Positions 6,993 through 44,499 of a DNA stretch of 54,201 nucleotides are shown here, in pieces; the first letter of the stretch is position 1, and each line of letters begins with the position of its first letter. The notes under the pieces were generated by a model. That model saw only the letters and a program-made list of their open reading frames with translations, had not been told where the DNA came from and did not search any database. The position numbers were made by a program, and so were the translations under genes. The stretch is from Actinomycetota bacterium (GTDB lineage: Bacteria > Actinomycetota > Acidimicrobiia > Acidimicrobiales > AC-14), in assembly GCA_040754375.1 (NCBI GenBank), contig JBFMCT010000021.1:1-54201 (forward strand). Reading direction: 5' to 3'.

Positions 6993-7015
6993 CAGCCCGG
7001 CAGCGTACCCAACGC

Positions 7016-7066: not shown

Positions 7067-7142
7067 CGCGGGGGTTGGCGGTTAGCCGGTCGGCGGCGAC
7101 GGGAACGTAGGGAGGAGCGACAACTGACCGGAGGTGGTCGTT

Positions 7143-7523
7143 ATGCCCGCGGACAAAGAGCTCCCCTCCACGCTGAAGCGCAGCCCGGCCAAGGCCCGCC
7201 GTACGTGGTCCAAGACCCACGACAGCGCCGTCGAGTCCTATGGCGAGGGGGAGCGGGCCCACCGCACGGCCTACGCCTCGCTCAAGCACTCGTTCGAGAA
7301 GGTGGGCGACCACTGGGAGCCCAAGGACGAGAAGGGCCCCTCCGACCCCGAGCCGCGAGACGCGAGCACGGCCGCCCGGCGAAACAGAAAGACCTACGGC
7401 GGGGTCGACGTCGAAGGCAACTCCCGCGACGAGCTCTACCAACGGGCCCGCCGCCTGGGGGTCAAGGGGGCCTCGCGGATGAAGAAGACCGAGCTGGCCG
7501 AAGCCATCGCCCGTCGGCAGTAA
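7143..7523 (+). CDS. ChaB-like protein with C-terminal Rho-N/SAP-like domain
   Basis: 126 residues. The ATG at 7143 is preceded by GGAGG at 8-nt spacing, which makes it preferable to the upstream in-frame GTG at 7134. Residues 4-60 match ChaB (STLKRSPAKARRTWSKTHDSA, then AHRTAYASLKHSFEKVGDHW). Residues 92-126 match the Rho termination factor N-terminal domain (NSRDELYQRARRLGVKGASR, then MKKTELAEAI), a small nucleic-acid-binding helical fold. This two-domain arrangement is common in actinobacteria; a DNA/RNA-binding stress-related role is usually assumed but unproven. Confidence 0.87.
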   Translation: MPADKELPSTLKRSPAKARRTWSKTHDSAVESYGEGERAHRTAYASLKHSFEKVGDHWEPKDEKGPSDPEPRDASTAARRNRKTYGGVDVEGNSRDELYQRARRLGVKGASRMKKTELAEAIARRQ

Positions 7524-7687
7524 GGCCCTTACGACGCAAACGGGGAGCCACCCACCCCGCCCCCCTCCGGCACGCCTTCGCCCGAGGAGGTTGAGGGGCC
7601 TTCAACCCGGGGCCGGGGCCCGGACAGGCACCGCGGGCCGGCTGAGCCGGACCAGCGGCCCCCGGCCCGCTGCCGTAGCGTGTCGCC

Positions 7688-8686
7688 ATGGGACGGGGGG
7701 GTAGGCGGCAGACGGCGTGGGCCGCCGTCGCCGTTCTGGCCCTGCTCGCGCCCGTGGCCTGCGGAGGGGGTTCTTCGAGCCCCCAGTCCCAGGCCCAGGT
7801 GACGATCGGCATCCTGCGGGCCGTGCGGTCGATGGAGCCCCAGAACGTCGAGACGTTCCTGGCTGAGCTGGCGTCCGGCGGCTACGCCCAGGGCCGCAAC
7901 CTCCGCGTGCATGGTGCCGACCCCGGGGAGGTCCACCCCGATCCGCAGGACGCCGAGGCCGTCGTGCGAACGTGGGCCGAGGGTGGGCTCGACCTGGTGC
8001 TGGCCCTCTCCAGTTCGGGAGCCATGGCCGCCGCCCGGGCCGCCCCGGGAGTGAAGGTCCTGTTCCTCTCCAACGACCCCATGGCCGTTGGCCTGGTGAC
8101 CGACGAGCGCCGGCCCGAGGCCAACCTGACGGGGGCGACGTTTCGCGTCCCTGCCGACCGGACCGTCGACGTGGCCCGCCGGCTGCTGCCGGGTATCACC
8201 AAGGCGGGCCTGGTCTACCCGACCTCGGACCCGGCGGCTGCGCCGGTGCGCGACGCCACCGTGCGGGCCGGGGCCGCCCTCAACCTCCAGATGGCGACGG
8301 CCGGATTCGCCACCGCCGACGAGGTAGGAGCGGCCATCGAGAAGCTACGGGCCGAGGGAGCCGAGGTCCTCCTGTTGGCCAACGCCCCCACGACCGTGCG
8401 CAACTACCCGGCCATCACCGCCGCCTTGGCCGGCACCCCCATGCCCGTGATCGCCAACACCACGACGGACTTCGCCCTCGCCATCTTGGAGCCGGACACC
8501 ACCGAGCTCTACCGCCAAATGGGGCGCCAGGCCGTGCGCCTGCTCCAGGGCAGCCCGGTGTCAGATGTGCCTGTCGAGGACCCCGCTCGCTTCCGCCTCA
8601 CCGTCAACCTCAAGGTGGCTGCCGCCCTGGGGATCGAGGTGCCCGCCGACGTCGTCCGTACCGCCGACCACGTCGTCCGGCCTTGA
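7688..8686 (+). CDS. ABC-transporter substrate-binding lipoprotein (TrpX-like family)
   Basis: 332 residues. A lipoprotein signal ends in the lipobox LAPVAC followed by GGGSSS, so the mature protein should be lipid-anchored outside the membrane. The body fits the ABC substrate-binding family with the pattern VTIGILRAVRSMEPQNVETF, DLVLALSSSGAMAAARA, GLVYPTSDPAA and NLKVAAALGIEVP. In this family ligands include amino acids and similar small molecules; the ligand is not predictable here and no permease or ATPase gene is adjacent. The last 126 bp overlap tail-to-tail with the phosphatase gene on the other strand. Confidence 0.9.
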   Translation: MGRGGRRQTAWAAVAVLALLAPVACGGGSSSPQSQAQVTIGILRAVRSMEPQNVETFLAELASGGYAQGRNLRVHGADPGEVHPDPQDAEAVVRTWAEGGLDLVLALSSSGAMAAARAAPGVKVLFLSNDPMAVGLVTDERRPEANLTGATFRVPADRTVDVARRLLPGITKAGLVYPTSDPAAAPVRDATVRAGAALNLQMATAGFATADEVGAAIEKLRAEGAEVLLLANAPTTVRNYPAITAALAGTPMPVIANTTTDFALAILEPDTTELYRQMGRQAVRLLQGSPVSDVPVEDPARFRLTVNLKVAAALGIEVPADVVRTADHVVRP

Positions 8687-10204
8687 TCCACGCCCAACGA
8701 CCACGAGGGTTATGTCGTCGCGCCGCTGACCACCGCTGAGGCCGTTCACCTCGGCGAAGCACAGGTCGGCGAGCACGTCGGGGTCGCAGCCGTCGCGGCC
8801 GTGGGGCATACCCCCCAGCAGATCCGTCAGCCGTTCGACCCCGAACTCGGAACCGTCGGGGCCCTTGGCCTCCACCAACCCGTCGCTGTAGATGGCCAGC
8901 GTGGCCGCCGGGGCCAGCTCGGCCTCGGCGTCTGACCAGTCGGCCTCCAAGGGCCCGAGCAAGGGCCCGGTGGGGCCCAAGGTGGTGACCACGCCTCGGT
9001 CGCAAACCAGCATAGGAGGGTGGCCGGCACTGGCGTAGCGGAGCCGGCCCGAGCACGGGCTGATCTCGACTACGACCCCGGTAAGGAAGCTCTCGCCCGT
9101 GTCGCCCAGCTGGCCGGACAGCCAGCGCAGGGACGCGGCCGGGCTGAGCCCGTTGCGCAGGGCGCCGATCAGCAGGTACTTCGTCTTGAGGGCGAACACG
9201 CCCGCGCCCGCCCCATGGCCGGAGATATCGATCAGGGCCACTGCGAAGCGCCCCTCGCCCAGGTCCACGACGTCGAACCAGTCCCCGGCGACCACGCCCT
9301 CGGCCGGTTGGAACCGTGACGCGATGCGCAGCCGCTGGTCGACGTCGAGGGGCCCGGGCGCCAGCTCGTCGCGAAGGGCCAGCACCACCATGCCCCGCTG
9401 GGTGAGGGCCGCCCGAGCGGCATGGGCCTCCTCGATCTCGGTTACCAGTCGCTGGCGCATGGCCTCGACGTCCCGGCCGAGCTCGGCGAAATCGGGGGGA
9501 CCGGTGGCCGGGATCGGGGTGGCCAGGTGACCGCCGGCCACCTTGCGCACCGCCATCCCGAGCCCCGTCACGGGCCGGGTCACCCAACGCGACAGGAGCC
9601 ACCCGGCCAGCCAGAGGAGGGCGAGGCCGGCGAAGGCGCTGGCCACCCGTACCTCGGTCAGCCGGTCGCCCAGATCGTCGAGCTGAGCCTCGTTGGCCGA
9701 CAGCTCAAGGTCGACGGCCGTCTGCAGGTCGGCGATCTCTTGGCGGGCACGACCCAAGAGCTCGGTGCCCGTCCCGGTGGCCACCAGGGCGGCCGCCTCG
9801 GAGCCCCGTCCCGCCCGTTTGGCCTCGATCTCGAACTCGGCCCCCAACCTTCGCCAGGCACTGACCCTGCCCGCCACCCGCTCGACAGCCGCCATAAGGT
9901 CAGGGTCGTGCGCCAGCAGGTCCCGCAACTGAAGAACGCGGGAGTCGACCCGGGCCTCGCCGTCCCGGTAGGGCTGCAGGAACCGGTCCTCCCCGGTGAT
10001 CAGGTAGCCACGGCCGCCCGTCTCCTGGTCGACCAGACCGGCCTGGAGGTCGACGAGCGCCAGGCGGGCCGGCCGGAGCCGCTCGTCGGCCTCGGCACGC
10101 ACGATGTCCCGGCGGTGAGCCACGTAGCTGTCGAGGGCGACGTGCACGACGAGGAGCACGAGCAGGGGGACGAACAGGAGCTGCAACCGGCGGCGGGCAC
10201 GCAC
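8561..10204 (-). CDS. Membrane CHASE3-HAMP-SpoIIE (PP2C-type) phosphatase
   Basis: 547 residues. An N-terminal transmembrane segment (LLFVPLLVLLVVHVAL) is followed by a CHASE3-like sensory domain (residues about 30-190, with DQETGGRGYLITGEDRFLQPY), a second membrane segment (ASAFAGLALLWLAGWLLSRW), a HAMP linker beginning VTRPVTGLG and a SpoIIE/RsbU phosphatase domain with GDWFDV, DISGHGAGAG, YASAGHPPML, YSDGLVEA and DDITLVVVG. Such enzymes dephosphorylate anti-anti-sigma factors in partner-switching control of stress sigma factors. It is divergent from an RsbW-like ATPase gene. The catalytic part ends before the 41 C-terminal residues encoded antisense to the lipoprotein gene. Confidence 0.9.
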   Translation of the reverse strand: MRARRRLQLLFVPLLVLLVVHVALDSYVAHRRDIVRAEADERLRPARLALVDLQAGLVDQETGGRGYLITGEDRFLQPYRDGEARVDSRVLQLRDLLAHDPDLMAAVERVAGRVSAWRRLGAEFEIEAKRAGRGSEAAALVATGTGTELLGRARQEIADLQTAVDLELSANEAQLDDLGDRLTEVRVASAFAGLALLWLAGWLLSRWVTRPVTGLGMAVRKVAGGHLATPIPATGPPDFAELGRDVEAMRQRLVTEIEEAHAARAALTQRGMVVLALRDELAPGPLDVDQRLRIASRFQPAEGVVAGDWFDVVDLGEGRFAVALIDISGHGAGAGVFALKTKYLLIGALRNGLSPAASLRWLSGQLGDTGESFLTGVVVEISPCSGRLRYASAGHPPMLVCDRGVVTTLGPTGPLLGPLEADWSDAEAELAPAATLAIYSDGLVEAKGPDGSEFGVERLTDLLGGMPHGRDGCDPDVLADLCFAEVNGLSGGQRRDDITLVVVGRGSRPDDVVGGTDDVGGHLDPQGGSHLEVDGEAEASGVLDRHI

Positions 10205-20331: not shown

Positions 20332-22875
20332 ATGGTTACTACGCGGCTCGTCCATCTGGTCCGTTCGGTGGGTTTCGGCGCCGAGACCCGCCTCGACGGC
20401 GACGTCCTGAGCGTCGCCGTCGACGACCTCGTCCCCCTGTTCGCCTCCCCGGCGCTCGCCGGCGTGCGCCTGAGCTGGGCCTCGCCCGGGGGCTCGGTGC
20501 GCATCGTCAAGGTGCTCGACGCCGTCGAACCCCGGTCCGGGGGCCATGTGCTGCGGCCCGTGGCGCTGGTGGCCGCCGGTCACCTGCCCAGGGCCCAGGA
20601 GGCGCTGGTCGACATGTCGGGGCCGGGCGCCCCCCTGTCGCCCCTGGGGGCCACCCACAACCTGGTCGTGGAGTTCGACCCGGCCGAAGGGGCCGACTGG
20701 GTCGAGGTCGACAAGGCGGTGCGGGCGGGCGTGCTGGCCGCCGCCTCCCGGCTCGGCCAGGCGGCCGCCGCGGCCGGGGCGGAGGCGGCCCAGGCCGAGC
20801 CGTGGCCGTCGGCTCGGGCCGGCGCCCCCGGGGGGCCGCTACCCCGGGTGGGGGCCATCACCAACCTGCAGACCCAGGGCAACTTCAAAGACGTGTTCGT
20901 CTACGGCCGCAGCTTCAGCGGGGGGCTGCCCACGGCCATCGACCCCGGCGAGGTCGACGCCGGGGCCATCGTCAGCGGCCAGTTCGGCCACCCGGCCCTC
21001 AAGAACCCGACCATCGTCCACCAGAACCACCCGGTGGTGGCCGCCCTGGGCGAGCGCGACGGCACCGACCTGACTTTCGCCGGCCTGGTGATCTCGCCCG
21101 AGCCGGTGGAGGCCGGGCACAAAGAGCAGGTCTCGGCCCACGCCGCCCGGCTGTGCGCCGCCCTGGGCTGGGACGCGGCCATCGTCACCAAGGAGGGCGG
21201 GGGCAACGCCGACGGCGACATGGCCCTCAAGATGGACGCCCTCGACGAGTTGGGCATCGCCTCGGTGGGCATCTACGCCGAGATGTCGGGCCCGGACGGC
21301 ACGGGCCCGCCCGTGGTCGTCCCCCCCACCAAAGCGACAGCCATGGTCAGCTCCGGCAACTACGACGAGCGCCTCCTGCTGCCCGCCGTGGAACGGGCAT
21401 TGGGGGGCGAGCGCCTGGCCCTGCTCGACGTGGAGGCCACCGCCGAGATGACCTTGCCGGTGGCGGTCATCTACGCCTCGTGCAGCCCGCTGGGCTGGGG
21501 CCGGCTCCAGGCCGTGCCCACCGAGGCCCCGGCCGCGGGCGCCGACGGGGGTACCACGGTGGCCTCAGCCGCCGCCGGCCGCCCCGTTCGGGTGGTGCAC
21601 TACATCAACCAGTTCTTCGCCGGCCAGGGCGGGGAGGACAGCGCGGGCGTCGGCCCCACGGCCCAGCCCGGCCCCGTAGGCCCCGGCCGCAAGCTGGCCA
21701 CCCTGCTCGGGGACGGGTTCGAGGTGGTGGCCACGGTCTCGTGCGGCGACGACTACGCAGCCGCCGGTCCCCAGGCGGCCGCCGAGGTGCTGGCCCTGGT
21801 CCAGGCGGCCGAGCCCGACCTGGTGGTGGCCGGCCCGGCCTTCACCAGCGGGCGCTACGGGTTGGCGTGCGCCCGGGTGGCGGCCGCCGCCCAGGCCGCC
21901 GGCACCGCGGCCGTGGCTTCGCTCCACCCCGACAACCCCGGCCTCGACGAAGCCGGGGCGGCCGTGGTGGTGGCCGCCGGCGAGGCGGCCCGCACCATGG
22001 CGGCCACCATGGCGACACTGGCCGCCGCGGTCCGCAAGGTGGCGGCCGGCGAGGCCCTGGGGCCCGACGACGGCCGCATCGGCAAGGTCCCCCGCCGCAA
22101 CCAGATGAGCGAGCGGACCGCGGCCCAGCGGGCCGTCGACCTGGTGCTGGCCAGGCTGGCCGGGGACCGGGAGGCGACCGAGATCCCCCTGCCCCGCTTC
22201 GACCACGTGACCCCGGCCGCCCCCGTGGCCGACCTGTCGACGGTCACCGTGGCCCTCGTCACCGAAGGTGCCCTCGTGCCCGACGGCAACCCCGACGGCC
22301 TGGAGTCGGCCCGGGCCACCAAGTGGCTCCGCTACCGGCTGGAGGGCCAGGAGGCGCTGCCCGCCGGCACGTGGATGTCGGTGCACGGCGGTTTCTCCAC
22401 CCAGTGGGCCAACGCCGACCCCCACCGCATCCTGCCCCTGGACGTGGCCCGTGACCTCGAGCGAGAAGGGCGCATAGGTGCGCTGGCGGGTGCCTACCTG
22501 GTGACGGCCGGCAACGGCACTTCTGTGGGCAACGCCCGCCGCTTCGGGGTGGAGTGGGCCGCCGACCTCCACCACAGCGAGGCCCGGGCCGCCATCCTCA
22601 CCGCCACCTGAGGGACAGGGACGCGTTGCGGGGCAACGCTGGCCAAGGAACTGGAGCGGGCGGGCATCCCCACCGCTCTCCTGTGCAACCTCACGTCGAT
22701 AGCCCAGCGGGTCGGCGCGCCGCGCATCGTCCCCACCCGGGGCATCCCCTACCCCACCGGCGACCCGTCCCTCGGCCCCGAAGGCGAACGGGCCTGGCGC
22801 CGCCGCCTCCTCGACACCGCCCTGACGGCCCTACAAACCCCCGTCCACGGGCCCACCATCTTCGAGGTGCCCTAG
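20332..22875 (+). CDS. grdEB: GrdE-GrdB fusion selenoprotein (glycine/sarcosine/betaine reductase protein B-like)
   Basis: 847 residues when the in-frame UGA at codon 760 is read as selenocysteine. Residues 1-416 resemble GrdE (IVKVLDAVEPR, ALVDMSGPGAPLSPLGATHN, NLQTQGNFKDVFVYGR, KNPTIVHQNHPVV). Residues 417-847 resemble GrdB (RPVRVVHYINQFFAGQGGED, TVALVTEGALVPDGNPD, VTAGNGTSVGNARRFGVEWA), then ILTAT-U-GTGTRCGATLAKELERAG and a further conserved tail to TAG at 22873. The position of U matches Sec in GrdB (about residue 344 of the GrdB part). The GrdE part has SGQFGHPALKNPT where, from memory, GrdE has SGNCVSACDKN; the Cys that yields pyruvoyl is missing (F218). GrdE/GrdB bind the amine substrate and pass it to GrdA as a carboxymethyl-selenide. 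Fusion and Cys loss suggest an unprocessed, altered protein B with unknown substrate. Confidence 0.92.
22609..22611 (+). other. Recoded UGA (selenocysteine) codon of grdEB
   Basis: The TGA is in frame between ILTAT and GTGTRCGAT, exactly where GrdB selenoproteins carry Sec. Eighty-seven further sense codons encode the typical GrdB C-terminus (RIVPTRGIPYPTGDPSLGPE) before TAG. Of the CxxC usually found after Sec (UGTCTRC, from memory) only the second Cys (C766) remains; the first is Gly. Confidence 0.9.
22623..22639 (+). promoter_or_regulatory. Candidate bacterial SECIS hairpin downstream of the grdEB UGA
   Basis: GCGTTGC (22623-22629) pairs perfectly with GCAACGC (22633-22639) around the loop GGG. 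The loop begins 18 nt after the UGA and has G in the first position, which fits the usual bacterial SECIS distance and loop rules. SelB binding is inferred. Confidence 0.55.
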
Positions 22876-26060: not shown

Positions 26061-27496
26061 GGCCGGGCCTCGGTGGGCTCGATCTCGTCGGGGAAGAAGA
26101 ACAGGTAGCGGCCGTGACCGAGCTGCACCTCGGTGCCGTCGTCGTCGAGCACGCTGACGGCCACCTGGGTGTTGCCGTCGACGTCCTGGAAGACGGCCTG
26201 CACGGTGGCCGCCATCCCGCTCAGGAACAGGTCATGGGCATCGGCCCGGCGCGACGGGCGCAACACCACCGGCGTGCCCCGGCCCACGGCCACCCCGTCG
26301 ACCCACACCCGGTCGCCGAAGGGGTCGACCTCGGCCTCGGCCTCGGGCGTCCACCACGACACTCCTGCCCCCGCCCCCTCCGGCGCGGCCGCCTCCGGCA
26401 CCGGGTCGTAGGGGGCGGCTTCGAACGGGCCGCCGCTCCTCAAGGAGCGGACGGCGCCGTGCAGGCTCTCGAACACCTCCGGGCCCATGGCGTCGACCCG
26501 GTCGATGATGGCCGCCGCCCGGGGGTCGGTGCTACGGGCCTCCCGCTTCTCCTGGTCAGTCAAGGTGAGGACGCGCAGGGCGAGGATCTCGTCGATCTCG
26601 GTGGCGTCGAACATGTCACCGGGGCTCTCGGGGGCGATCTCGGGGTAGTCCGAGAGGATGACCGGCGATGACAGCACCACGGCCCGCTGGCCCTCGGCGC
26701 CGATAAGGACGGGCCAGGTGTGCCGGTTGGTGCAGGCGGCGGCCGCCGGCCCGGCCCACTCGGGCGGGTCGGCCAGGGAGACGAAGGCGCCGCCCCGGAC
26801 GGCCAAGAGGGTGTGGACGGCGGCCATCGACTGCCGGCACACGTCGTCCCGGCTTACCGGCGTGGCCCGTGGCTCCCAGGGGGTGTGGTTCTCGACCCGG
26901 GCCTGGAGGCGTACGACGGGGTGGTCGCCGGGCACGGCCTGGGCCGACAGCCGCAGCACGGCCGACAGCGGCCGGCGGCGGCGTACGACTCGTCCCGCCA
27001 GCTCGCCGGCATCGTCGCGCAGGTCCTCGGTCTCCTCTCCCCCGTCCCGGTCTATGGCCAGCTCCCGCTCGCCCATCAGCAGGGAGGCCAGATCGACCTG
27101 GACGAGGTTGACCTCGTCCTCGACGGCCTCGTCCCACGCCGTGTACAGCCGCCCTCCGACTTCGAGCTCGGCCACGGGCCGGCCTTCAGCGTCGGTCACC
27201 TCGCGCTGGCAGACTCCCAGGAAGCGCACGCGCACGTCGAGCCGTGCGTCGGTACCGGCTTCGACCAGGGTCTCGGTCTGGCTCACCCAGTCCTCGCCCG
27301 GGTCGGTCTCGGCGTAGGCCCGGGGGGCCACCACGCCGAACTGCCAGCGCACCTGGTTCTTGCGCGACGAGGCCCGGTAGGGGTAGAGCACGTAACCCTC
27401 GTAGAGCACGGCGTCGGCCACTTTCCGGGCATCGGCGAAGGGATCGGCGAAGGGATCGGCGAAGGGATCGGCGAGGGCATCGGCCCGACTACTCAC
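26057..27496 (-). CDS. Conserved hydrogenase-operon protein of unknown function
   Basis: 479 residues from a GTG at 27496 that overlaps the DUF6084 gene stop as GTGA. After a short repeat (ADPF units) the body begins DAVLYEGYVLYPYRASSRKN, with QVRWQFGVVAPRAYAETDP, then many beta-type segments and the C-terminal GHGRYLFFFPDEIEP. No catalytic motif or membrane segment is evident. It is always a question whether such a protein is a scaffold or an assembly factor; position in a fully overlapping operon supports a dedicated hydrogenase role. Confidence 0.8.
   Translation of the reverse strand: MSSRADALADPFADPFADPFADARKVADAVLYEGYVLYPYRASSRKNQVRWQFGVVAPRAYAETDPGEDWVSQTETLVEAGTDARLDVRVRFLGVCQREVTDAEGRPVAELEVGGRLYTAWDEAVEDEVNLVQVDLASLLMGERELAIDRDGGEETEDLRDDAGELAGRVVRRRRPLSAVLRLSAQAVPGDHPVVRLQARVENHTPWEPRATPVSRDDVCRQSMAAVHTLLAVRGGAFVSLADPPEWAGPAAAACTNRHTWPVLIGAEGQRAVVLSSPVILSDYPEIAPESPGDMFDATEIDEILALRVLTLTDQEKREARSTDPRAAAIIDRVDAMGPEVFESLHGAVRSLRSGGPFEAAPYDPVPEAAAPEGAGAGVSWWTPEAEAEVDPFGDRVWVDGVAVGRGTPVVLRPSRRADAHDLFLSGMAATVQAVFQDVDGNTQVAVSVLDDDGTEVQLGHGRYLFFFPDEIEPTEARP
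27431..27478. repeat. Four 12-bp tandem units encoding ADPF repeats
   Basis: Three perfect copies and one variant copy of ATCGGCGAAGGG, in frame at the N-terminus of the 479-residue protein. Adds ADPFADPF to the protein; likely a slippage-prone, dispensable linker. Confidence 0.85.
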
Positions 27497-28152
27497 GCCC
27501 CGGCCTCCTTGAGCAGCCGTTCGATGGTCTGCTCCCACGTGGGCAGGCCCTCGACCGTGCGGTAGCGCTCGAGGGCATCGAGGGTTTGGCGGGGCACCCG
27601 CAGCCATCCCTGGTTGGGGAAGTAGAGGTCCATCGTGTCGCGCCAGGTGGCCACCGGGAGGCGGAAGTCGCACTCCGCGTGCCACGGCACGGGGCTCACC
27701 TGCAGGCCCCCCTCGTCGGCCTGGGAGAAGACCGTGCCGCTGAACAGCAGCACCAGGGGGATCTCTCCCCCTTCGAGCGAGTGCATGTACTTGGCCCCGG
27801 CCACCTCGAAGTCGTAGCTGCAGGCGATCGGAAGCTCGATCTCGGTCTCGCCCGTGAAGCCGGCCACCATGGCGCTGGCGTGGGCCCACAGGAAGGGGCG
27901 CAGGGTGTCACCCCAGCGCGGGGTCTCACCGAACAGAGCGAGCAGGCGCTCCTCCTCGGCGGCCGTGTAACGCCGCTTCTGGGGCTCGATGCGCAACTGG
28001 CAGCGCAGAGCCATGGTGTGCACGGGGGTGGCCGTGGGCTCGGTGACCCTCAGCCGCAGCACGAGCAGCGGTGAGGCCGCGTAGCGGTCGGGTTCCGCCC
28101 CCAGCACCTCGAACCCCAGCTCGGTCACAGACTGCCGTTCGGGGGGGCCCAT
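27493..28152 (-). CDS. DUF6084-like hydrogenase-operon protein
   Basis: 219 residues. FEVLGAEPDRYAASPLLVLR, LRCQLRIEPQKRRYTAAEEE, SYDFEVAGAKYMHSLEGGEI and MDLYFPNQGWLRV are, from memory, typical of DUF6084, found beside actinobacterial group 1h hydrogenases. The predicted fold is beta-rich, cytoplasmic. It overlaps the DUF5947 gene by 28 bp and the next gene by 4 bp. Biochemical role unknown. Confidence 0.82.
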   Translation of the reverse strand: MGPPERQSVTELGFEVLGAEPDRYAASPLLVLRLRVTEPTATPVHTMALRCQLRIEPQKRRYTAAEEERLLALFGETPRWGDTLRPFLWAHASAMVAGFTGETEIELPIACSYDFEVAGAKYMHSLEGGEIPLVLLFSGTVFSQADEGGLQVSPVPWHAECDFRLPVATWRDTMDLYFPNQGWLRVPRQTLDALERYRTVEGLPTWEQTIERLLKEAGA

Positions 28153-28805
28153 GGGGGGGCGCCGTGGCGTACCGGCGAGGATGCCTTGGCGACCACCCCG
28201 GCGAAGAAGTCATCGATGGCCTGGTGAGCTTCGCCGCCGCCGTCGAAGCCCTTCCAGTACATGCGCAGGTAACCGACGAGCTCGTAGCAGGCGTCGATGG
28301 GCACGATGTAACTGGCCGGGTCGCCCTCGCGCTCGGCCCGCACGAGCAGGGCCTCGACGTCGGCCTCGATGGAGGCCACCAGGGGCTCGGCCGCCCTCAG
28401 CCGCTCCCACATGTCGAGGGGCAGCAGCGACTCGGTGGCCCCGGCGGGGCCGGGGTAGAAGCAGTGGACCTCCCCGGTGGTCGACGAGAAGAAGAAGAAG
28501 GCGATGCCCACCGGCACCTGCAGGCTCTCCCAGTCGCCCCGGGTGAGGGTCGCCTCTGGTAGCTCGACGCACCGGTCGGGCACCGACTTGTACCGTCCCC
28601 CGGCCGCACCCCCGGGCAGGAACAGGAGGTAGCAGGGCCGGCAGGCGCACATGAGGCCGCGTGACTCGAGGTTGACGACGTGGCTGTGCTCGGTGCCGAT
28701 CTCGGTGGCGCACATCTCGCACTGCTCCCCGGGCCGGGGACGCGGCTTGCGGAACCGCTCGAGTATGTCGAGCGGGCCCGGTCCGGAGGAGCCCGGGGGG
28801 CTCAT
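28125..28805 (-). CDS. DUF5947-like Cys-rich hydrogenase-operon protein
   Basis: 226 residues from an ATG at 28805 overlapping the NifU stop (ATGA). The N-terminal third has two Cys pairs, GEQCEMCATEIGTEHSHVV and GLMCACRPCYLLF, suggesting a zinc or Fe-S site; the C-terminal part is mixed alpha/beta (SYIVPIDACYELVGYLRMYW). It matches, from memory, DUF5947 of group 1h hydrogenase clusters. A role in Fe-S delivery or electron transfer is plausible because it is next to a NifU-type gene, but unproven. Confidence 0.82.
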   Translation of the reverse strand: MSPPGSSGPGPLDILERFRKPRPRPGEQCEMCATEIGTEHSHVVNLESRGLMCACRPCYLLFLPGGAAGGRYKSVPDRCVELPEATLTRGDWESLQVPVGIAFFFFSSTTGEVHCFYPGPAGATESLLPLDMWERLRAAEPLVASIEADVEALLVRAEREGDPASYIVPIDACYELVGYLRMYWKGFDGGGEAHQAIDDFFAGVVAKASSPVRHGAPPWAPPNGSL

Positions 28806-29359
28806 GTGACTGCGACGGGCTTGCGCCCGATGGCCACCGGCTGGTCGGGCACGGGCGGCGGCTCCGGTTCCTCCAGGCCCTCGACCTCGATGGTCACGAT
28901 CTCGGGGGCGGCCTCGGCCACCGCCTGCTCGACCGAGTGGCGCAGCGTGGCCGTCGACCCGGGGCACCCGTCACAACTGCCGAGCAGGCGAAGGCGCAGC
29001 ACGCCCGCGTCCTCGTCGAGCTCGATCACCTCCACGTCGCCGCCGTGGGAGCCCAGATAGGGGCGCACGCTCAGCAACGCCCCCTCCACCCGCTCGGACA
29101 GGTCGCGCGGGTGAAGGCCATGGAGCACGAGCAGGCTGGCCACCAGTTCGTCCTCGACCAGCCGGTCGAGCAGGACCGGGCCGGCCACCCCGTCGCTCTT
29201 GAGGGTGCGCACGGCGGCCGCCAGCCCGGCCCCGTAGAGATCGGTGACCAGGGCGAGCGCCTCTTCCACGAGGCGCCAGGTGACCGGGTCGAGGGTGCCA
29301 CGGAGCTGAGATACGAGCTCCTCGATCCGGTCACCGGTGGCGCGTAGGTTGGAGCTCAC
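28802..29359 (-). CDS. NifU C-terminal-domain protein
   Basis: 185 residues from a GTG at 29359 that overlaps the hhyL stop as GTGA. The second half is the NifU/Nfu domain (RPYLGSHGGDVEVIELDED, LRLLGSCDGCPGSTATLRHS) with its CxxC for transient Fe-S clusters. The first half (about 90 residues) is helical. It probably supplies clusters to the hydrogenase small subunit or to an electron-transfer partner. Genes of this kind are regularly found with group 1h enzymes. Confidence 0.9.
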   Translation of the reverse strand: MSSNLRATGDRIEELVSQLRGTLDPVTWRLVEEALALVTDLYGAGLAAAVRTLKSDGVAGPVLLDRLVEDELVASLLVLHGLHPRDLSERVEGALLSVRPYLGSHGGDVEVIELDEDAGVLRLRLLGSCDGCPGSTATLRHSVEQAVAEAAPEIVTIEVEGLEEPEPPPVPDQPVAIGRKPVAVT

Positions 29360-31146
29360 TCCCCGGTGTTGACCTGGGTCGGGCTGTGGAGCTTGCGCAG
29401 CACCTTGCCCTTGCCCAGGTACATGTGCACCCCGCAGGGCAGGCACGGGTCGAAGCTACGGACGGCCCGCATGATGTCGATGCCCTTGAAGTTCTCCCGG
29501 TCGTTCTCCTCGAAGATGGGAGTGTTCTGGACGGCGTCCTCGTAGGGACCGGGGGTGCCGTAGACGTCCCGGGGGTTGGCGTTCCAGGGCGTGGGCGGGT
29601 AGGGGTGGTAGTTGGCGATCTTGCCGCCCCGGATGACCATGTGGTGGCTGAGCACCCCCCGCACAGCCTCGGTGAACCCGCAGCCGATGGCCTCGTCGGG
29701 CACGGTGAACGGCTCCCACGTCTTGGTGCGGCCCGCCTTGACCTCCTTGAGGGCGTCCTCGATGAAGTCCAGGGCGGCGGCCGCCGCGTAGGCCTGGAAG
29801 TAGGTCCGGGCCCGGTCGCGCTCGATGGCGTTGGACCACTTGGGCGTCTTCCACTCGAAGTTGGCCTCGGGCTTGAGGGCGGTGCGGGGCAGGTGGATCT
29901 GCACGCTCTTGCCCGTCGCCTTGAGGTGTTCGGTGTTGACCAGGCCCGACAGGGCGGTGGACCACAGGCGGGCGATGGGGCCGCCGCCGGTGTCGAGGGC
30001 GAGGTGGTCCTTGCCGTCGAACCAGCGGGGCGACATGACCCACGAGTAGTTGCCGTCGAAGTCGCGCTTTTGGGGCTGGGGGATGGTGTGCTGGTTCCAC
30101 GGGTGGCGGCGGTCGACCGGGTTGCCCAGGGGGTCGCGGTCGACGAACATCGGCTGGTCCTCCCAGTCCTCGTAGAACGAGTGGCCGAGCAGGATGCGGA
30201 TGCCGAGGTTGATCTGCACGAGGTCGTTGGTGACCAGCTTGCCGTCGACGACGATGCCCGGGGTGACGCCCATGGCTCGGCCCCACTCGGTCATGTCGCG
30301 GTAGTTGAAGTTGCACACCTCGGGGTCCTGGAAGGCGCCCCAGCAGTTGAGCAGGATGCGCCGGCGGCCGACCTCCTCGTAGCCGGGCATGGCCTCGTAG
30401 ATGAAGTCGAAGAGGTCGTCGTGGAGGGGCACGACCTTCTTCATGAACTCCACGTAGCGCATGAGCCGGGCGTAGTAGTCGGTGAAGAGCTGGATGGTGG
30501 CCGTCGTGCCCACCCCGCCCGGGTACAGCGTGGAGGGGTGGACGTGGCGCCCCTCCATCAGGCAGAACATCTCCCGGGTGTAACGGCTGACCTGGAGGGC
30601 CTCGCGGTAGAACTCGCCCGAGAACGGGTTTAGCGACCGCATGATGTCGGCGATGGTGGCGTAGCCGTGGTCGGCCGCGTGGGGGGCCTCGGTCTGCTCG
30701 GCCAGGTCGAGCACCCCGGGGTTGGTCTCGGCGATCATCTTCTCGCAGAAGTCGACCCCCACCAGGTTCTCCTGGAAGATGTTGTGGTCGAACATGTACT
30801 CGGCCGCCTCACCGAGGTTGACGATCTGCTCGCCCAGGTGGGGCGGGCGCACGCCGTAGGCCATCTGCTGGGCGTAGACCGAGCACGTGCAGTGGTTGTC
30901 CCCGCAGATGCCGCAGATCCGGCTGGTGATGAAGTGGGCGTCGCGCGGGTCCTTGCCCTTCATGAAGATGCTGTAGCCCCGGAAGATCGAAGAAGTGGAG
31001 TGGCACTCCTCGACCCGGCCGGTGCCGAAGTTGATCTTGGTGTAGATGCCCAGGCTGCCCACGATCCGGGTGATCGGGTCCCACGCCATCTCCACGACGT
31101 CGCTGTTGGTCCCGGTCCGGCTCGACCTCGCTGTCCTCGTTGCCAC
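29356..31146 (-). CDS. hhyL: Group 1h [NiFe]-hydrogenase large subunit
   Basis: 596 residues from a GTG at 31146 with GGGGGAG at 7-nt spacing. The nickel-site motifs are RICGICGDNHC (C78, C81) and DPCLPCGVH (C568, C571), followed by a 22-residue C-terminal peptide for removal by the protease encoded downstream. Segments such as NIFQENLVGVDFCEKMIAET and the lack of an export signal fit the actinobacterial high-affinity, oxygen-tolerant enzymes that oxidise atmospheric H2. Group placement rests on the operon composition and motif context. It is 70 bp downstream of hhyS. Confidence 0.95.
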   Translation of the reverse strand: MATRTARSSRTGTNSDVVEMAWDPITRIVGSLGIYTKINFGTGRVEECHSTSSIFRGYSIFMKGKDPRDAHFITSRICGICGDNHCTCSVYAQQMAYGVRPPHLGEQIVNLGEAAEYMFDHNIFQENLVGVDFCEKMIAETNPGVLDLAEQTEAPHAADHGYATIADIMRSLNPFSGEFYREALQVSRYTREMFCLMEGRHVHPSTLYPGGVGTTATIQLFTDYYARLMRYVEFMKKVVPLHDDLFDFIYEAMPGYEEVGRRRILLNCWGAFQDPEVCNFNYRDMTEWGRAMGVTPGIVVDGKLVTNDLVQINLGIRILLGHSFYEDWEDQPMFVDRDPLGNPVDRRHPWNQHTIPQPQKRDFDGNYSWVMSPRWFDGKDHLALDTGGGPIARLWSTALSGLVNTEHLKATGKSVQIHLPRTALKPEANFEWKTPKWSNAIERDRARTYFQAYAAAAALDFIEDALKEVKAGRTKTWEPFTVPDEAIGCGFTEAVRGVLSHHMVIRGGKIANYHPYPPTPWNANPRDVYGTPGPYEDAVQNTPIFEENDRENFKGIDIMRAVRSFDPCLPCGVHMYLGKGKVLRKLHSPTQVNTGE

Positions 31147-31216
31147 GAAACTGCTCCCCCTTCGAATTGGTGCGTGCTGGATGAGTTGGTGCGGCGGCTA
31201 GCAGTGAGCCGGCGGA

Positions 31217-32269
31217 CTAGCGCCAGTCGGCCTTGTAGCCGGTGAGGAGGCGCTGGCCCTTGGTGCGCCACTTGGGCTCGGTGTCGACCGTCTTGGCCGT
31301 GATCTCCCGCAAGCCGCGGATGACCGACCCGTACAGCCCGGAGGCGGCCGTCGAGACCTTGCCGCCCGGGGGCTCGTCCATGAACGGCATGAACTTGTCG
31401 GGGAAGCCGGGCATGGTGCAGCCGATGCAGATGCCGCCCACGTTGGGGCAGCCACCCACGCCGTTGATCCACCCTCGTTTGGGCACGTTGCACTTGACCA
31501 CCGGGCCCCAGCAGCCCAGCTTGACTATGCACTTGGGCGAGCCGTACTCGGTGGCGAAGTCGCCCTGCTCGTAATAACCGGCCCGGTCGCAACCCTCGTG
31601 CACCGTCTGGCCGAACAGCCAGGTGGGCCGCAGGGCGTCGTCGAGGGGGATCATGGGGGCCTGGCCGGTGGCCATGTAAAGCAGGTAGAGGATCGTCTCG
31701 GACAGGTTGTCGGGGTGGATCGGGCAGCCGGGGACGTTGACGATGGGGATGCCCGCCTTGGACTTCCAGTTCCAGCCCAGGTAGTCGGCCAGGCCCATGG
31801 CCCCGGTGGGGTTGCCGGCCATGGCGTGGATGCCGCCGTAGGTCGCGCACGTGCCCACGGCCAGCATGGCGGTGGCCTTGGGGGCCAAGCGGTCGAGCCA
31901 CTCCGAGAGGGTCATGGGCTGGTCGGTGGCCGGGTTGTTGCCGAACCCCGTCCAGTAGCCCTCGCTCTTGATGGACTCGTTCGCGATCGAGCCTTCGACC
32001 ACCAGGACGAAGGGCTCCAGCTCGCCACGCTCGGCCTTGAAGAACCACTCGATGAAGTCGTCGGCCCCGCCGACCGGGCCGCATTCGTAGTCGATGAGCG
32101 GCCAGTGCACGGCTATCTTCGGTAGGCCGGGGAGCGCCTGGAGCGCGATCTCCTCGATGCTCGGCTGGGTGGCGGCGGTGAGGGCGACGGAATCACCGTC
32201 ACAACTCAGCCCCGCATTGATCCAGAGGATGTGGATGACTGGTTCCGCTGCTGCCTTCGCTGGAGCCAC
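31217..32269 (-). CDS. hhyS: Group 1h [NiFe]-hydrogenase small subunit
   Basis: 350 residues from a GTG at 32269 with GGGGGGA at 8-nt spacing; the frame is open upstream but has no comparable site. There is no twin-arginine signal, so the enzyme should face the cytoplasm. The proximal cluster motif reads GLSCDGDS (C23-x-x-D26), with Asp where most hydrogenases have Cys, as described for the actinobacterial-type enzyme of Cupriavidus. Other ligands lie in AVGTCATYGG, NVPGCPIHP, HEGCDRAGYY, PKCIVKLGCWGPVVKC and CPNVGGICIGC. Electron acceptor unknown. Confidence 0.95.
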   Translation of the reverse strand: MAPAKAAAEPVIHILWINAGLSCDGDSVALTAATQPSIEEIALQALPGLPKIAVHWPLIDYECGPVGGADDFIEWFFKAERGELEPFVLVVEGSIANESIKSEGYWTGFGNNPATDQPMTLSEWLDRLAPKATAMLAVGTCATYGGIHAMAGNPTGAMGLADYLGWNWKSKAGIPIVNVPGCPIHPDNLSETILYLLYMATGQAPMIPLDDALRPTWLFGQTVHEGCDRAGYYEQGDFATEYGSPKCIVKLGCWGPVVKCNVPKRGWINGVGGCPNVGGICIGCTMPGFPDKFMPFMDEPPGGKVSTAASGLYGSVIRGLREITAKTVDTEPKWRTKGQRLLTGYKADWR

Positions 32270-32541
32270 GAGCCGGGTCCCCCCTTGAGCGTGCGTGAGC
32301 CGAGGCCGCGCCGACGACGCGGACAACCCCCGCTCTTTTCGCTGGTAGGTCCCACTCTGACCGGTTTCGCGGGCCGTGTCAGTAGCGATCCTCTGCAAGT
32401 AGCTGAGGGGTTCAACCTAGGCACCCATCACTCTATGACGGGCGCATTTAGAGAAAATCCGGCGAACTGTGGCGCGCCAGTAGCGGGGAGAGCGATGCTG
32501 TCGACCGAGCCGTCTTCGCACCATAGGGGGGTCGAACGACC
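32270..32541. promoter_or_regulatory. Divergent promoter region between hhyS and the small membrane protein operon
   Basis: 272 bp without a gene. It must hold the hydrogenase promoter and the divergent promoter. The stretch around 32400-32465 is less GC-rich (with CTCTATGACG and TTTAGAGAAAAT), a reasonable place for promoter elements, but I cannot define -35/-10 boxes or an operator with confidence. Confidence 0.5.
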
Positions 32542-37135: not shown

Positions 37136-37181
37136 ATATGCATCCAGTGACTAGTGGCGGCTGGGCCCATACTTGGGGGCG

Positions 37182-38624
37182 ATGAACCAACTGACCTCGC
37201 CCGCTGCGGTGGTCACTGCCGCCGGCCAGGTCCTGGCCCACGTGCCGTCCATGGCCCGCCACGGGTCGAAGCCGTCCCGGGAGCTGCCCAAGAACAAGGC
37301 CGTGGAGGAGAAGTTCCTGGCCTCCCTGCGCTCGTTCGACGAGGCCGTGGCCTACCCGGCTCACCGGGCCTACCTGGGGGCCGTCCATCCTCGTGACCTG
37401 CCCGAGCGCCCGTGGACCGGAGCGACCGGAGGCCAACGCCTGGCCCCCTACGGCGAGATCGTGCCCGAGGTGGAGTTCCTGGGGCTGCTGGCCGCGGCCG
37501 ACGAGTTCGAGCTGGTCACCCTGGGGCCGGAGCTGGCCGGGCGGGCGGCGGCCGCCCTGGCGGCCCACCCCCTGGCCAAGCACCTTTCGCTGGAACGCAT
37601 CGACAAGGCCACCGGCGACGTCGGGGCGGCGGTGGCCGAGCCCGGGGCGCTGCCTCTCTATGTCAACGGGACCGAGATGGGGGGCGCGATCCGCTGCGGG
37701 CAGGCCGACGACCAGTCCCTGGCCGCCCACGTCCTGCTGGAGAACCTCTCGTCCAAGGTCACGGCCAGCCTGGCCCTGCTCCACCTGCTCGACCGCCAGG
37801 GCATCGACCCGGCGTCGATCGACTACGTCATCGGCTGTGGCGAGGAGGCCATCGGCGACCGCTACCAGCGGGGCGGGGGCAACTTCGCCAAGGCGGTGGC
37901 CGGTTACTGCGGGCTCAGCGAGGCCTCGGGCGCCGACATCAAGAACTTCTGCGCGGCCGCCATCCCCGCCCTGGTCACGGCCTCGAGCCTGGTGACGGCC
38001 GGGGTGTTCGACCGGGTGGCGGTGGTCGCCGGCGGTTCGCTGGCCAAGCTGGGCATGAAGTTCCAGGGCCACCTCAGCCACGACATGCCCGTCCTGGAGG
38101 ACGTGCTGGGCGGGGCGGCCGCCATCGTCCAGCGCGACGACGGGCGCTCCCCGCTCGTGCGCCTCGACTCGGTGGGCCGCCACCGGGTGGGGGCCGGCGG
38201 CTCCGCCCCCCAGATCATGGAGGCCCTGGCCCTCGAACCCCTGTCCCGGCTGGGCATGTCGACCACCGATGTCGACGACTTCGCCACCGAGTTGCACAAC
38301 CCCGAGGTGACCGAGCCCCAGGGGTCGGGCAACGTCCCCGAACGCAACTACAAGACCATCGCCGCCCTGGCCGCCCGCCGGGGTGACATCGGCCGTGACG
38401 GCATCGCCGAGTTCGTGGCCACCCGGGGTATGCCTGGCTACGCCCCGACCCAGGGCCACCTGGCATCGGCCCTCTGTTACCTGCCCCACGCCGTAGAGCG
38501 GCTTACCTCCGGCGACGCCGGTAGGGTGATGCTGCTGGCCAAGGGGAGCCTGTTCCTGGGGCGCCTGTGCCAGCTCTCCGACGGCATGAGCGTCCTGCTC
38601 GAGCGCAACCCCCGGAGGGTGTGA
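37182..38624 (+). CDS. grdC: GrdC-like component C subunit (glycine/sarcosine/betaine reductase)
   Basis: 480 residues from the ATG at 37182 (an upstream TTG at 37173 is possible). The sequence AAGQVLAHVPSMARHGSKPS, SLRSFDEAVAYPAHRAYLG, PLYVNGTEMGGAIRCGQADD and NFCAAAIPALVTAS follows GrdC, a FabH-like thiolase-fold subunit that carries the acetyl/carboxymethyl group as thioester; the Cys in KNFCAAA is the likely active residue. In known systems GrdC works with GrdD to make acetyl phosphate; no GrdD gene is in the window. It is the first gene of a grdC-trx-grdA operon. Confidence 0.9.
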   Translation: MNQLTSPAAVVTAAGQVLAHVPSMARHGSKPSRELPKNKAVEEKFLASLRSFDEAVAYPAHRAYLGAVHPRDLPERPWTGATGGQRLAPYGEIVPEVEFLGLLAAADEFELVTLGPELAGRAAAALAAHPLAKHLSLERIDKATGDVGAAVAEPGALPLYVNGTEMGGAIRCGQADDQSLAAHVLLENLSSKVTASLALLHLLDRQGIDPASIDYVIGCGEEAIGDRYQRGGGNFAKAVAGYCGLSEASGADIKNFCAAAIPALVTASSLVTAGVFDRVAVVAGGSLAKLGMKFQGHLSHDMPVLEDVLGGAAAIVQRDDGRSPLVRLDSVGRHRVGAGGSAPQIMEALALEPLSRLGMSTTDVDDFATELHNPEVTEPQGSGNVPERNYKTIAALAARRGDIGRDGIAEFVATRGMPGYAPTQGHLASALCYLPHAVERLTSGDAGRVMLLAKGSLFLGRLCQLSDGMSVLLERNPRRV

Positions 38625-38626
38625 AG

Positions 38627-38974
38627 GTGCTGGAAGTGACGAAGGAGAACTTCGACGAGGTCGTGGCCGAGGGCGTGACCCTCGTCGACGTCTGGGGCCC
38701 CCAGTGCATGCCCTGCCTGGCCATGATGCCCGACGTCGAGCGCCTGGCCGAGGACCGGGCTGCAGACCTCAAGGTCGTCAAGCTGGAGGCCCCCAAGAAC
38801 CGGCGCCTGTGCATGCAGTACAAGGTGATGGGGCTGCCCGCGTTCTTGATGTTCCGAGACGGCGAGGAGGTCGGCCGCCTCGACGGGGCCGACGTCACCG
38901 CCGCCGAACTGCGCGACTGGGTCGACCGTACGCTGGAAGACCTGGCCGGCACCGCCACCGCAGGGGGGAGGTGA
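38627..38974 (+). CDS. Grd-type thioredoxin
   Basis: 115 residues from a GTG at 38627, 8 nt after GGAGG; it starts 2 bp after the grdC stop. Begins MLEVTKENFDEVVAEGVTLV, and the active site is WGPQCMPC (CxxC) rather than WCGPC. This start and the WGPxCxPC motif are those of thioredoxins encoded in clostridial glycine reductase operons, which reduce the selenenyl-sulfide of GrdA. The cis-Pro loop is seen in VMGLPAFLMF. No thioredoxin reductase is adjacent. Confidence 0.9.
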   Translation: MLEVTKENFDEVVAEGVTLVDVWGPQCMPCLAMMPDVERLAEDRAADLKVVKLEAPKNRRLCMQYKVMGLPAFLMFRDGEEVGRLDGADVTAAELRDWVDRTLEDLAGTATAGGR

Positions 38975-38980
38975 TTCCCA

Positions 38981-39439
38981 TTGTTCGCCGGTAAGAAGGT
39001 GATCGCCCTGGGCGAGCGGGACGGGATCTCCGGTCCCGCCATCGCCGCCTGCGTGGCTGCCGCCGGGGGCGAGGTGGCGTTCGTCGCCACCGAGTGCTTC
39101 GTCTGAACGGCGTCAGGCGCCATGGACCTGCAGAGCCAGGAGGCGATCTCCCGGCTGGCCAAGTCCCACGGCCCCGCTGAGCTCTTGGTGCTGCTCGGTG
39201 CCCCCGACCCGGAGGCCGCCGAGATCGCAGCCGAGACAGTGGTGGTCGGGGACCCGGCCTACGCAGGTGCCCTGACGGAGGCCCAGTTGGGCCTCGACGT
39301 GTACCACGTTCTGGAAGAGGCAGTGCGGGCGACCGTGCCCGACGACGTCTGGGAGGAGCAGGTCGGCGTCATGGCCGACATCCTCGACGCCGACGCCCTC
39401 GGGGCGGCCGTGGCCGCCATGCGGGCCCAGCGCCCGTAG
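38981..39439 (+). CDS. grdA: GrdA selenoprotein A, read through in-frame UGA
   Basis: 152 residues including Sec42. The TTG at 38981 has GGAGGTGA 6 nt upstream and starts 6 bp after the thioredoxin stop. The first part, [20 protein letters not shown] and [10 protein letters not shown], ends at TGA, then [40 protein letters not shown] and [20 protein letters not shown] continue to TAG at 39437. This is the full GrdA pattern (CFVU-TA-GAMDL) and near the usual 155-158 residues. GrdA carries the carboxymethyl-Se intermediate between protein B and protein C and is reduced by thioredoxin. Confidence 0.94.
39104..39106 (+). other. Recoded UGA (selenocysteine) codon of grdA
   Basis: In frame after TECFV and before TASGAMDL; the motif C39-F-V-U42 is the redox CxxU of GrdA. 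Taken as a stop it would leave two unrelated fragments of 41 and 110 codons, while together they give a complete GrdA. Confidence 0.93.
39135..39159 (+). promoter_or_regulatory. Candidate SECIS hairpin of grdA
   Basis: GCCAG-GAG (39135-39142) can pair with CTC (39148-39150) and, beyond a CCGG bulge, CTGGC (39155-39159), around the loop GCGAT. The loop begins 36 nt after UGA, at the upper limit for bacterial SECIS. A closer 4-bp alternative is CAGG/CCTG around 39114-39130. Neither is certain. Confidence 0.35.
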
Positions 39440-42442: not shown

Positions 42443-44353
42443 TCAGGCGTGGGCGACGGCGGTGTCCATCTCTCCCGCCTCGGTCACGGTCATCAGCAGT
42501 TGGTCGAGGGCGTCGTCTTCGAGGGTCTCGGCCTCGATGAGCGTCTGGGCCAGCCGTTCGAAGGCGGCCTTGTTGGCCACCAGGGCGGCCATGGCCCGCT
42601 CCTCGGCCCGGTGGAGGATGGCCTGGATCTCCTCGTCGATCTCGGCCGCGATGCGCTCGGAGTAGCCCACGCCGATCTGGCCCTGGAAGCCGTCGGTGAA
42701 CGGCTTGACGATGTAGGGCCCCAGGTTCTGGGACATGCCGAAGTCGGCGATCATCTTGTGGGCCAACTGGACGGCGTGCTCGAGGTCGGCGGTCGCCCCC
42801 GAGGAGACCTCGCCGGTGGCCAGCCGTTCGGCCGCCCGGCCGCCCAGCAGGGCGGCGATACGGTCGAGCAACTGGGCCCGGGTCACCGTGACCTGGTCGC
42901 CCTCGGGCACCATCCACGTGAAGCCCCCGGCATGGCCCCGAGCCACGATCGACACCTTGCCCACCCGGTCGGTGCCGGGCAGGGCGGTCGAGACGATGGC
43001 GTGGCCCGACTCGTGGTAGGCGATGCGGGACCGGTCCTGGGGCGAGAGGATGCGGTTCTTCTTCTCGGGCCCGGCGACGGCCCGCTCGATGGCCTCCATG
43101 AGAAGGCGCGAGGTGATCTGGTTCTGGCCCCGGCGGGCGGCCAGCAGGGCGGCTTCGTTGACCACGTTGGCCAGGTCGGCGCCGCTGAAGCCAACCGTGC
43201 GCTTGGCCACGGCCGACAGGTCGACGTCCTCGGCCATGGGCTTGCCCCGGGAGTGGATCTTGAGGATGGCCTCACGGCCTCGCACGTCGGCCCGGTCGAC
43301 GCCCACCCGGCGGTCGAAGCGACCGGGACGCAGGAGGGCCGAGTCCAAGATGTCGGGGCGGTTGGTGGCGGCCAGCACGACGACCCCGCTGCCGGGGTCG
43401 AAGCCGTCCATCTCCACCAGGAGCTGGTTCAGGGTGGCCTCGCGCTCGTCCTGGCCACCCACGGCCATGGCCGTGCGGCTGCGGCCCACGGCGTCGAGCT
43501 CGTCGATGAACACGATGCAGGGGGACGCTTCTTTGGCCACCGCGAAGAAGTCGCGGATACGGGCGGCGCCGACGCCGACGAAGATCTCGACGAAGTCCGA
43601 ACCGGAGATGGAGAAGAACGGCACGTTGGCCTCGCCCGCCAGCGCCCGGGCCAGCAGCGTCTTGCCACAGCCCGGGGGGCCGGTCAGCAGGATGCCCTTG
43701 GGGACCGAGGCCCCCATGGCCAGGAACTTGTCCGGGCTGCCCAGGTAGTCGCGCACCTCGGCCAGTTCCTCGATGGCCTCGTCGACGCCGGCCACGTCCG
43801 AGAACGTGATCTTCGACTCTCCGACGGCCACACGTTTTGCCTTCGATTTACCGAAGCCCATCGTCTGTCCGCCTTGGCCCGGTCTGACTATCAAGAAGAC
43901 GATGAACAGACCGTTGAGGATGATCAGGGCGGGCAGGATCATCGACGCCGGCATGATGAGGTTCTTGAGGGGCTGCTGCTGGACCTTGTAGGCCACCCCG
44001 GCGTCCTCCATGGCCGAGGTCATGCGGCTGAACACGGTCTCCCGGCTCCCGACCGCCAGCCAGTAGTCGCCCCGGTCGTAGGTGCCGATGATGCGGGCGT
44101 CGGTCTCCAAGATGGTGGCCGTGGCGATGCGGCCCTGGCGCAGGAGGGTGATGAACTGGTCGATCCGCAGCTGGGTGCCGTCGGTACGCGGGTTGGACCA
44201 GTAGAGCAGCGTGCCGTAGAACAGGCCCAGCACCGGCAGAGCAGCGATGGCCAGGATCAGGGCCCGGCGCCGGGTCTTGGCCCGGTCGTCGATGTCGGGG
44301 GCCGGCGTGGGCTTCGGTCCGCCGGCCTTGCCACTCTTGTCTTTGCGGGCCAT
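42443..44353 (-). CDS. ftsH: ATP-dependent zinc metalloprotease FtsH
   Basis: 636 residues from ATG at 44353 (GGAG 5 nt upstream; a GTG one codon earlier is possible). Two membrane segments flank a periplasmic domain (residues about 31-155), then AAA+ ATPase with Walker A GPPGCGKT (about 225-232), Walker [15 protein letters not shown] arginines in [10 protein letters not shown], and the zinc motif HESGH near residue 440. It degrades membrane and regulatory proteins. The C-terminus is short ([15 protein letters not shown]...). Confidence 0.96.
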
Positions 44354-44499
44354 CACGTCTCCTTGGGAGTGTTCATGCCGGCCGGGGGCACACTGCCCCA
44401 GCCATCAACCATCGTCGGTGCCAGCTGCCCGGCTGGGCAATCGGGGATCACCCTGAGCGACCCTGAGACGGCCCTGACACCTAATAGAGCTACGACCGC

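Follow-up and report, generated by a model that had tools for sequence, protein, structure and literature searches.

The stretch of DNA analysed here (the window; 54,201 nt) is the entire contig C21 of an Actinomycetota bacterium. On its forward strand lies an intact grdA gene, coding for selenoprotein A (GrdA), whose TGA codon is read as selenocysteine (Sec; Table 1). Between the TTG start codon and the terminal TAG, the frame contains a single TGA (39104–39106), so that Sec falls at residue 42 and the redox centre CxxU (C39-F-V-U42) is encoded with UGA. This agrees with a first-pass annotation of the bare sequence, which had joined two halves into a GrdA with a CxxU centre and placed its start at a TTG behind a strong ribosome-binding site; such a site, GGAGGTGA, indeed lies ahead of the TTG. 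The 5′ half is hidden from conventional gene calling, as had also been proposed: under translation table 11, the only open reading frame (ORF) of at least 60 aa in the grdA frame inside the gene is 39122–39439 (105 aa, from ATG 39122). With the GrdA equivalog model NCBIfam NF040748 (curated cut-off 130 bits), this half scored 109.6 bits and on its own therefore misses the curated GrdA threshold, whereas the recoded whole of 152 residues scored 192.8 bits, which is the result of the family search that the first-pass annotation had suggested. With Pfam GRDA (PF04723; cut-off 22 bits), recoding raised the score from 107.3 to 188.2 bits and the match extended over the full profile (1–147 of 147), which excludes a chance match. 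The protein shares 48% identity with the Peptoclostridium acidaminophilum GrdA and 49% with the Enterococcus gilvus one. PDB sequence searches with GrdA and with the GrdEB protein described below returned zero matches.

Conservation of the gene was assessed in two overlapping sets of genomes, several of which are the same assemblies. Of 198 sampled genomes of the window's order, 14 carry grdA, all 14 copies contain the internal TGA, and mean column identity across the 14 aligned proteins was 78%. One genome (G021) was flagged with two TGAs, the second of them at the C-terminal end and read on a contig shared with locus L104. Scanning named genomes yielded 82 relatives, of which the best 80 loci were kept. 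In these best 80 of 82 named loci, the best match had TGA at the Sec position in all 80 cases and no upstream stop in the matched frame; the first 41 codons of related genes, where the first-pass annotation had advised looking for stops, are thus free of them up to the TGA. Of the two patterns used for the scan, one had Cys as its last residue, at the Sec position, and would therefore have favoured Cys forms of GrdA. All 80 named relatives come from metagenome assembly, where a single missing gene may be a gap, and any argument from absence therefore relies on consistency over genomes.

The division of the ORF into two parts under table 11 is what one would see if UGA were an ordinary stop and the locus a decaying pseudogene or a sequencing error. 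The chance of this is negligible in our judgement, as the reading is already refuted by conservation: the TGA sits at the same codon in all these best matches behind intact upstream frames, and both the protein and its synonymous sites are conserved. Furthermore, the genome encodes a tRNA-Sec (64.8 bits, anticodon TCA) as well as SelA (407.6 bits, cut-off 267.9) and SelB (293.4 bits, cut-off 242.25), which are neighbours on contig C9. Separately, two Desulfarculaceae metagenome-assembled genomes (MAGs) contain a Cys-type GrdA homologue with CSLC, that is, Cys at the Sec position (L110:12375-12893 and L115:2527-2973, both on the minus strand; Pfam GRDA 118.4 and 133.4 bits), on the strand opposite their own Sec-containing grdA. 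In the accessible text of PMC1794560 (Zhang 2006), no Cys homologues of GrdA are known, and under Actinobacteria GrdA is given for Symbiobacterium only.

Beyond the first-pass annotation, the grdA contig holds a second hidden selenoprotein, grdEB, in which GrdE (20332–21540) is fused to GrdB (21586–22608, up to the TGA). Past the TGA, the frame continues for 87 residues to a TAG at 22873–22875. With TIGR01918 (selenoprotein B; cut-off 65.45 bits), the score rose from 292.9 bits for the protein cut at UGA to 411.5 bits for the recoded one, covering profile positions 1–431 of 431. GrdB was present in 14 of the 18 order genomes searched, precisely the 14 with GrdA, and in none of the four same-family genomes lacking GrdA. 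Annotation hides such proteins: grdA and grdEB of this contig are both cut at UGA. Among the loci compared, the fusion is seen only in the window. Both genes could be measured at 22 of 28 actinobacterial loci; at 21 they differ in frame, and at the remaining one (L089) they share a frame but are separated by a stop. In addition, 22 aligned residues (a glycine-rich segment, KGPGGGGIFPG and on) are missing from the window GrdE; all 12 other rows covering the site have them in full or for the most part. This deletion, the fusion and the 14 kb distance from grdC make the activity of this particular copy less sure, and judging from sequence it may be altered or impaired, though its relatives are not. 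In one SAR202 MAG (L145), two different GrdE–GrdB sets, at 1645–4138 (minus strand) and 6898–9424 (plus strand), flank one grdC–grdA pair, as if a single carrier served two substrates.

A search of the window with Rfam at gathering thresholds gave no match and hence no match to a SECIS family. The recoding signal is clear for grdB and weaker for grdA. In grdB, synonymous sites are nearly fixed from codon +4 to codon +9 past the UGA (24 sequences), and the six-codon window at +4 ranks first of 371 windows for synonymous conservation (23 sequences, corrected for codon usage). The hairpin in this region folds with a z of −1.41 against shuffles, and its support thus comes from conservation more than from energy; a U-A pair is replaced by U-G in 2 of 19 aligned sequences, with pairing kept. 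For grdA, the six-codon window at +5 ranks 4 of 132 for synonymous conservation, and its fold is no better than shuffles (z −0.17). The highest synonymous conservation in grdA lies elsewhere, at 39278–39295 (codons +58 to +63 after the UGA). Sec was also considered in the [NiFe] hydrogenase of the window and rejected, its C-terminal motif being DPCLPC.

In relatives, the genes are grouped as grdE-grdB-grdC-(trx)-grdA. In the window, grdEB sits 14.3 kb upstream of grdC-trx-grdA, and the genes in between include a [NiFe] hydrogenase cluster and a cation ATPase. In L081, the closest relative, the hydrogenase block lies at most 2.3 kb upstream of grdC-trx-grdA, which speaks against an assembly error in the window, although the L081 stretch analysed contains no grdE or grdB. 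The longest ORF of trx starts at 38567 and matches Pfam Thioredoxin with 70.9 bits. Downstream of grdA, ARAGORN called an 86-base tRNA-Glu at 42493–42578 (plus strand), within and opposite ftsH (42443–44356), which is probably a false positive.

Table 1. Genes and signals of the grd system and the intervening hydrogenase in the window.
Feature	Position	Strand	Remarks
grdEB, fused GrdE–GrdB selenoprotein, 847 aa	20332..22875	+	Sec TGA 22609-22611; conventional ORF ends 22611
SECIS-like hairpin of grdB	22623..22639	+	GCGUUGC-GGG-GCAACGC in the window; synonymous conservation, fold; pairing kept in variants
[NiFe] hydrogenase genes	27493-32398	-	large subunit 29356-31146, small subunit 31217-32398, with DUF5947 and DUF6084 genes
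grdC, component C beta subunit, Cys260	37173..38624	+	NF040746 549.9 bits, cut-off 450; predicted KAS III/thiolase fold
trx, thioredoxin (CMPC)	38621..38974	+	probable GTG start overlapping the grdC stop, inferred from sequence
grdA ribosome-binding site	38967..38974	+	read directly; overlaps the trx stop codon
grdA, selenoprotein A, 152 aa	38981..39439	+	TTG start, TAG 39437-39439; direct reading and profile scores
candidate SECIS stretch of grdA, codons +5 to +12 past UGA	39119..39142	+	excess synonymous conservation; hairpin weak

We compared motifs of GrdE and GrdB in alignments of GrdE rows longer than 290 and GrdB rows longer than 330 residues. The pyruvoyl-forming Cys of GrdE is present as SGNC in three of four control GrdE/GrdG proteins, while all 21 rows of the window's clade have SGQ without the Cys. 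Outside this clade, six GrdE rows (L115, L120, L121, L144, L148 and L149) have a Cys two to three positions upstream of the aligned site, and the claim that no pyruvoyl group is formed is therefore restricted to the window's clade. In GrdB, the motif after recoding is UGTGTRCG (UxxGxxC) in 23 of 24 window-clade rows and UGTCTRCG in all four controls; the one row outside this count, L106, is split by a frameshift. The available part of a 2026 review (PMC13188914) gives the GrdB motif as UxxCxxC. At L106:5914-9449, both grdB and grdA are seemingly broken by frameshifts, as are grdE, grdB and grdC at L087:4752-8953; either case could be sequencing error. In a midpoint-rooted tree of 69 GrdB rows, the window falls into an actinobacterial clade of 24 rows with full support, which sits on a long branch (0.58) and is separate from the four canonical rows; under this rooting, the latter form a small clade inside the GrdD-less diversity.

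Substrate-specific models did not assign the recoded GrdEB to a known reductase, as all scores were far under their cut-offs: GrdF 426.4 bits (cut-off 800), gly_red_sel_B 375.1 (602.2), GrdH 357.7 (775) and GrdG 154.5 (780). We lean towards a substrate that does not require a Schiff base, for example betaine or a haloacetate; this reading of the sequence rests on the GrdE without a pyruvoyl-forming Cys, a feature of betaine and fluoroacetate reductases. A dehalogenase or detoxification system for haloacetates like FarEB, handing the carboxymethyl group to GrdA and GrdC, would fit one side of the motif data: according to the accessible text of PMC10838667, the two pyruvoyl-forming cysteines are missing from FarE, as from GrdI, and the CxxC residues from FarB; the window GrdE likewise has no SGNC Cys, and the first of the two GrdB cysteines is missing from its GrdB. 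The other side makes so specific an assignment rather improbable. The FarE model (cut-off 675) gave no more than 90.4 bits, less than sarcosine GrdG; the betaine protein GrdI is without the same Cys; the window GrdB keeps its second Cys; and no halide-related gene was recognised in the neighbours scanned. The scan covered 30 ORFs at nine out of 14 loci, a further 10 and 2 ORFs of relatives, and the neighbours in the window. Gene neighbourhoods were also considered as a clue to the substrate in general and rejected, since different genomes disagree: a TctA transporter, a peptide-type ABC transporter, a 2-hydroxyacid dehydrogenase and an amino acid permease each occur in different genomes.

In known glycine-reductase systems, GrdD is the subunit tied to acetyl-phosphate formation. 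Using the GrdD model with its cut-off of 350 bits, we detected no GrdD in any of 18 genomes of the window's order, including the 14 with GrdA, nor in any of the 80 named MAG genomes (0/44 and 0/36). The model performed as expected on controls: three of four plasmid records scored 549–581 bits, and 27 of 392 spirochaete-phylum genomes exceeded the cut-off. In the fourth plasmid record, the grd genes in the visible stretch are grdG, grdF and grdA only. Relatives gave weak matches of about 18–34 bits within model positions 112–238, which look like a related enzyme, possibly PlsX; such sub-cut-off matches also appeared in 7 of 14 control genomes. Phosphotransacetylase (Pta) was absent from all 14 GrdA-bearing order genomes and present in 10 of 14 control genomes. 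Acetate kinase was found in 4 of the 14 GrdA-bearing order genomes and in 9 of 14 control genomes. The window's genome is among the four, and acetyl-phosphate could therefore be used there.

These observations bear on whether the locus encodes a canonical glycine, sarcosine or betaine reductase with acetyl-phosphate as its product, its GrdD having fallen into an assembly gap or being too divergent to recognise. Such a reading would sit well with a GrdC over the equivalog cut-off, with the acetate kinase of the window's genome and three others, and with the draft state of the genomes. We nevertheless consider it unlikely, given the consistent lack of GrdD over the cut-off in both genome sets under controls that score high, the weak matches confined to part of the model, with sub-cut-off matches in control genomes as well, the missing Pta and the distance of the recoded GrdE–GrdB from every substrate-specific cut-off.

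GrdC is predicted to fold like KAS III, thiolases and their relatives (mean pLDDT 90.2, from 32 sequences). A Foldseek search with this model ranked FabH first (E 2e-10). By Z score, the predicted structure was closest to SpoVAD (22.6; 3.4 Å over 274 residues), which by its title is no CoA-using enzyme, and condensing enzymes, OleA, thiolase-like proteins and FabH followed within about 2 Z units. In enzymes of the KAS III/thiolase fold, acyl groups commonly move between CoA and an active-site Cys. Applying a rule of 90% on both sides, we found five GrdC columns that largely split GrdD-less from GrdD-bearing rows: 231 (Y/N), 257 (K/R), 296 (K/N), 331 (L/T) and 375 (H/Q). The GrdD-bearing side comprised 26 rows from 23 distinct loci, three plasmid loci being entered twice; the GrdD-less side comprised 71 rows, restricted to those of >420 residues without stops. 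Column 257 alone is exceptionless. L143 and L155, both without a GrdD over the cut-off, show the GrdD-type residue at 296 and 375 and a residue of neither type at 231, and L132, L141 and L159 deviate at 331. L111, a GrdD-less genome of the spirochaete phylum, is not among the exceptions, and the split thus does not simply follow phylum. Since the GrdD-bearing rows come from few lineages, the differences may still partly reflect ancestry. His439 had been a candidate marker of GrdD-less GrdC when three GrdD-bearing rows were available, and was dropped once 20 loci were added, as 10 of the 26 GrdD-bearing rows have His.

Taken together, GrdA very probably acts as the selenoprotein carrier in a complex with two selenoproteins, without GrdD and without a pyruvoyl group. 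The following steps are modelled on the established chemistry of the family, described in part in the accessible text of PMC13188914 and PMC10838667. The partners of GrdA would be the fused GrdE–GrdB (20332–22875), thioredoxin and GrdC. The selenol of GrdB would displace the leaving group of X-CH2-COO−, and the carboxymethyl group would then move from GrdB to Sec42 of GrdA. Cys39 and Sec42 would form a selenenylsulfide while the group passes as acetyl to Cys260 of GrdC, after which thioredoxin would re-reduce GrdA. The acetyl group on GrdC would finally be transferred to CoA and released as acetyl-CoA. For this last step, we infer from the missing GrdD that acetyl probably leaves GrdC to CoA; whether the product is acetyl-CoA and not acetyl-phosphate is, in our estimate, an even call. 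If it is acetyl-CoA, the system would feed small acids or osmolytes into central metabolism by a selenium-dependent route, in bacteria that are not regarded as Stickland fermenters.

More tentatively, and with slightly less than even confidence, we propose a second form of the glycine-reductase machinery, made of two selenoproteins, GrdC and often a thioredoxin, lacking GrdD and the pyruvoyl group and passing acetyl to CoA, which would occur in actinobacteria, Chloroflexota, Nitrospinota, Rokuibacteriota, Tectimicrobiota and others. If this holds, organisms without fermentative acetyl-phosphate metabolism would cut X-CH2-COO− reductively and bring the carbon straight to acetyl-CoA. The fermentative, acetyl-phosphate-forming version may even be the derived one, for which the midpoint-rooted GrdB tree gives just a hint. 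In any case, a broad set of uncultured environmental bacteria retains glycine-reductase parts without GrdD. GrdA selenoproteins were counted in 142 organisms in a 2016 survey (PMC5029168, available part), and in the accessible text of a 2022 study (PMC9751293) the Grd systems of Dehalococcoidia and further uncultured lineages are presented as glycine reductases. The occurrence of Grd in such lineages is therefore not new in itself; the main text of that study, as far as it is accessible, never mentions GrdC or GrdD. We found no description of a GrdD-less system in the titles and abstract openings of the open-licence papers retrieved on glycine reductase and selenoproteins.

A Sec-containing GrdA is ordinary and its setting here unusual, which is best seen in comparison with known systems. 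Like other members of its family (NF040748, PF04723), the window GrdA is full-length, has the CxxU centre and is encoded beside thioredoxin and grdC; not the protein itself but its partners are distinctive. The best-scoring specific models for the window GrdE and GrdB are those of sarcosine reductase, GrdG/GrdF of Peptoclostridium acidaminophilum (34.9% identity over the fused protein). The window system differs from that enzyme in the GrdE without the SGNC Cys, in UGTGTRCG instead of UGTCTRCG, in the fusion of E and B and in scores below the cut-offs. Betaine reductase of Enterococcus gilvus shares with the window GrdE the loss of the pyruvoyl-forming Cys (SGSFMPCSSK in GrdI); unlike in the window, GrdC and GrdD as well as a BCCT transporter adjoin, and its GrdB has UxxCxxC. 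Fluoroacetate reductase FarEB of Cloacibacillus porcorum resembles the window in having a FarE devoid of pyruvoyl cysteines and a FarB without CxxC, according to the available text of PMC10838667, but is set apart by a FarE model that the window protein matches far under the cut-off (90.4 against 675 bits).
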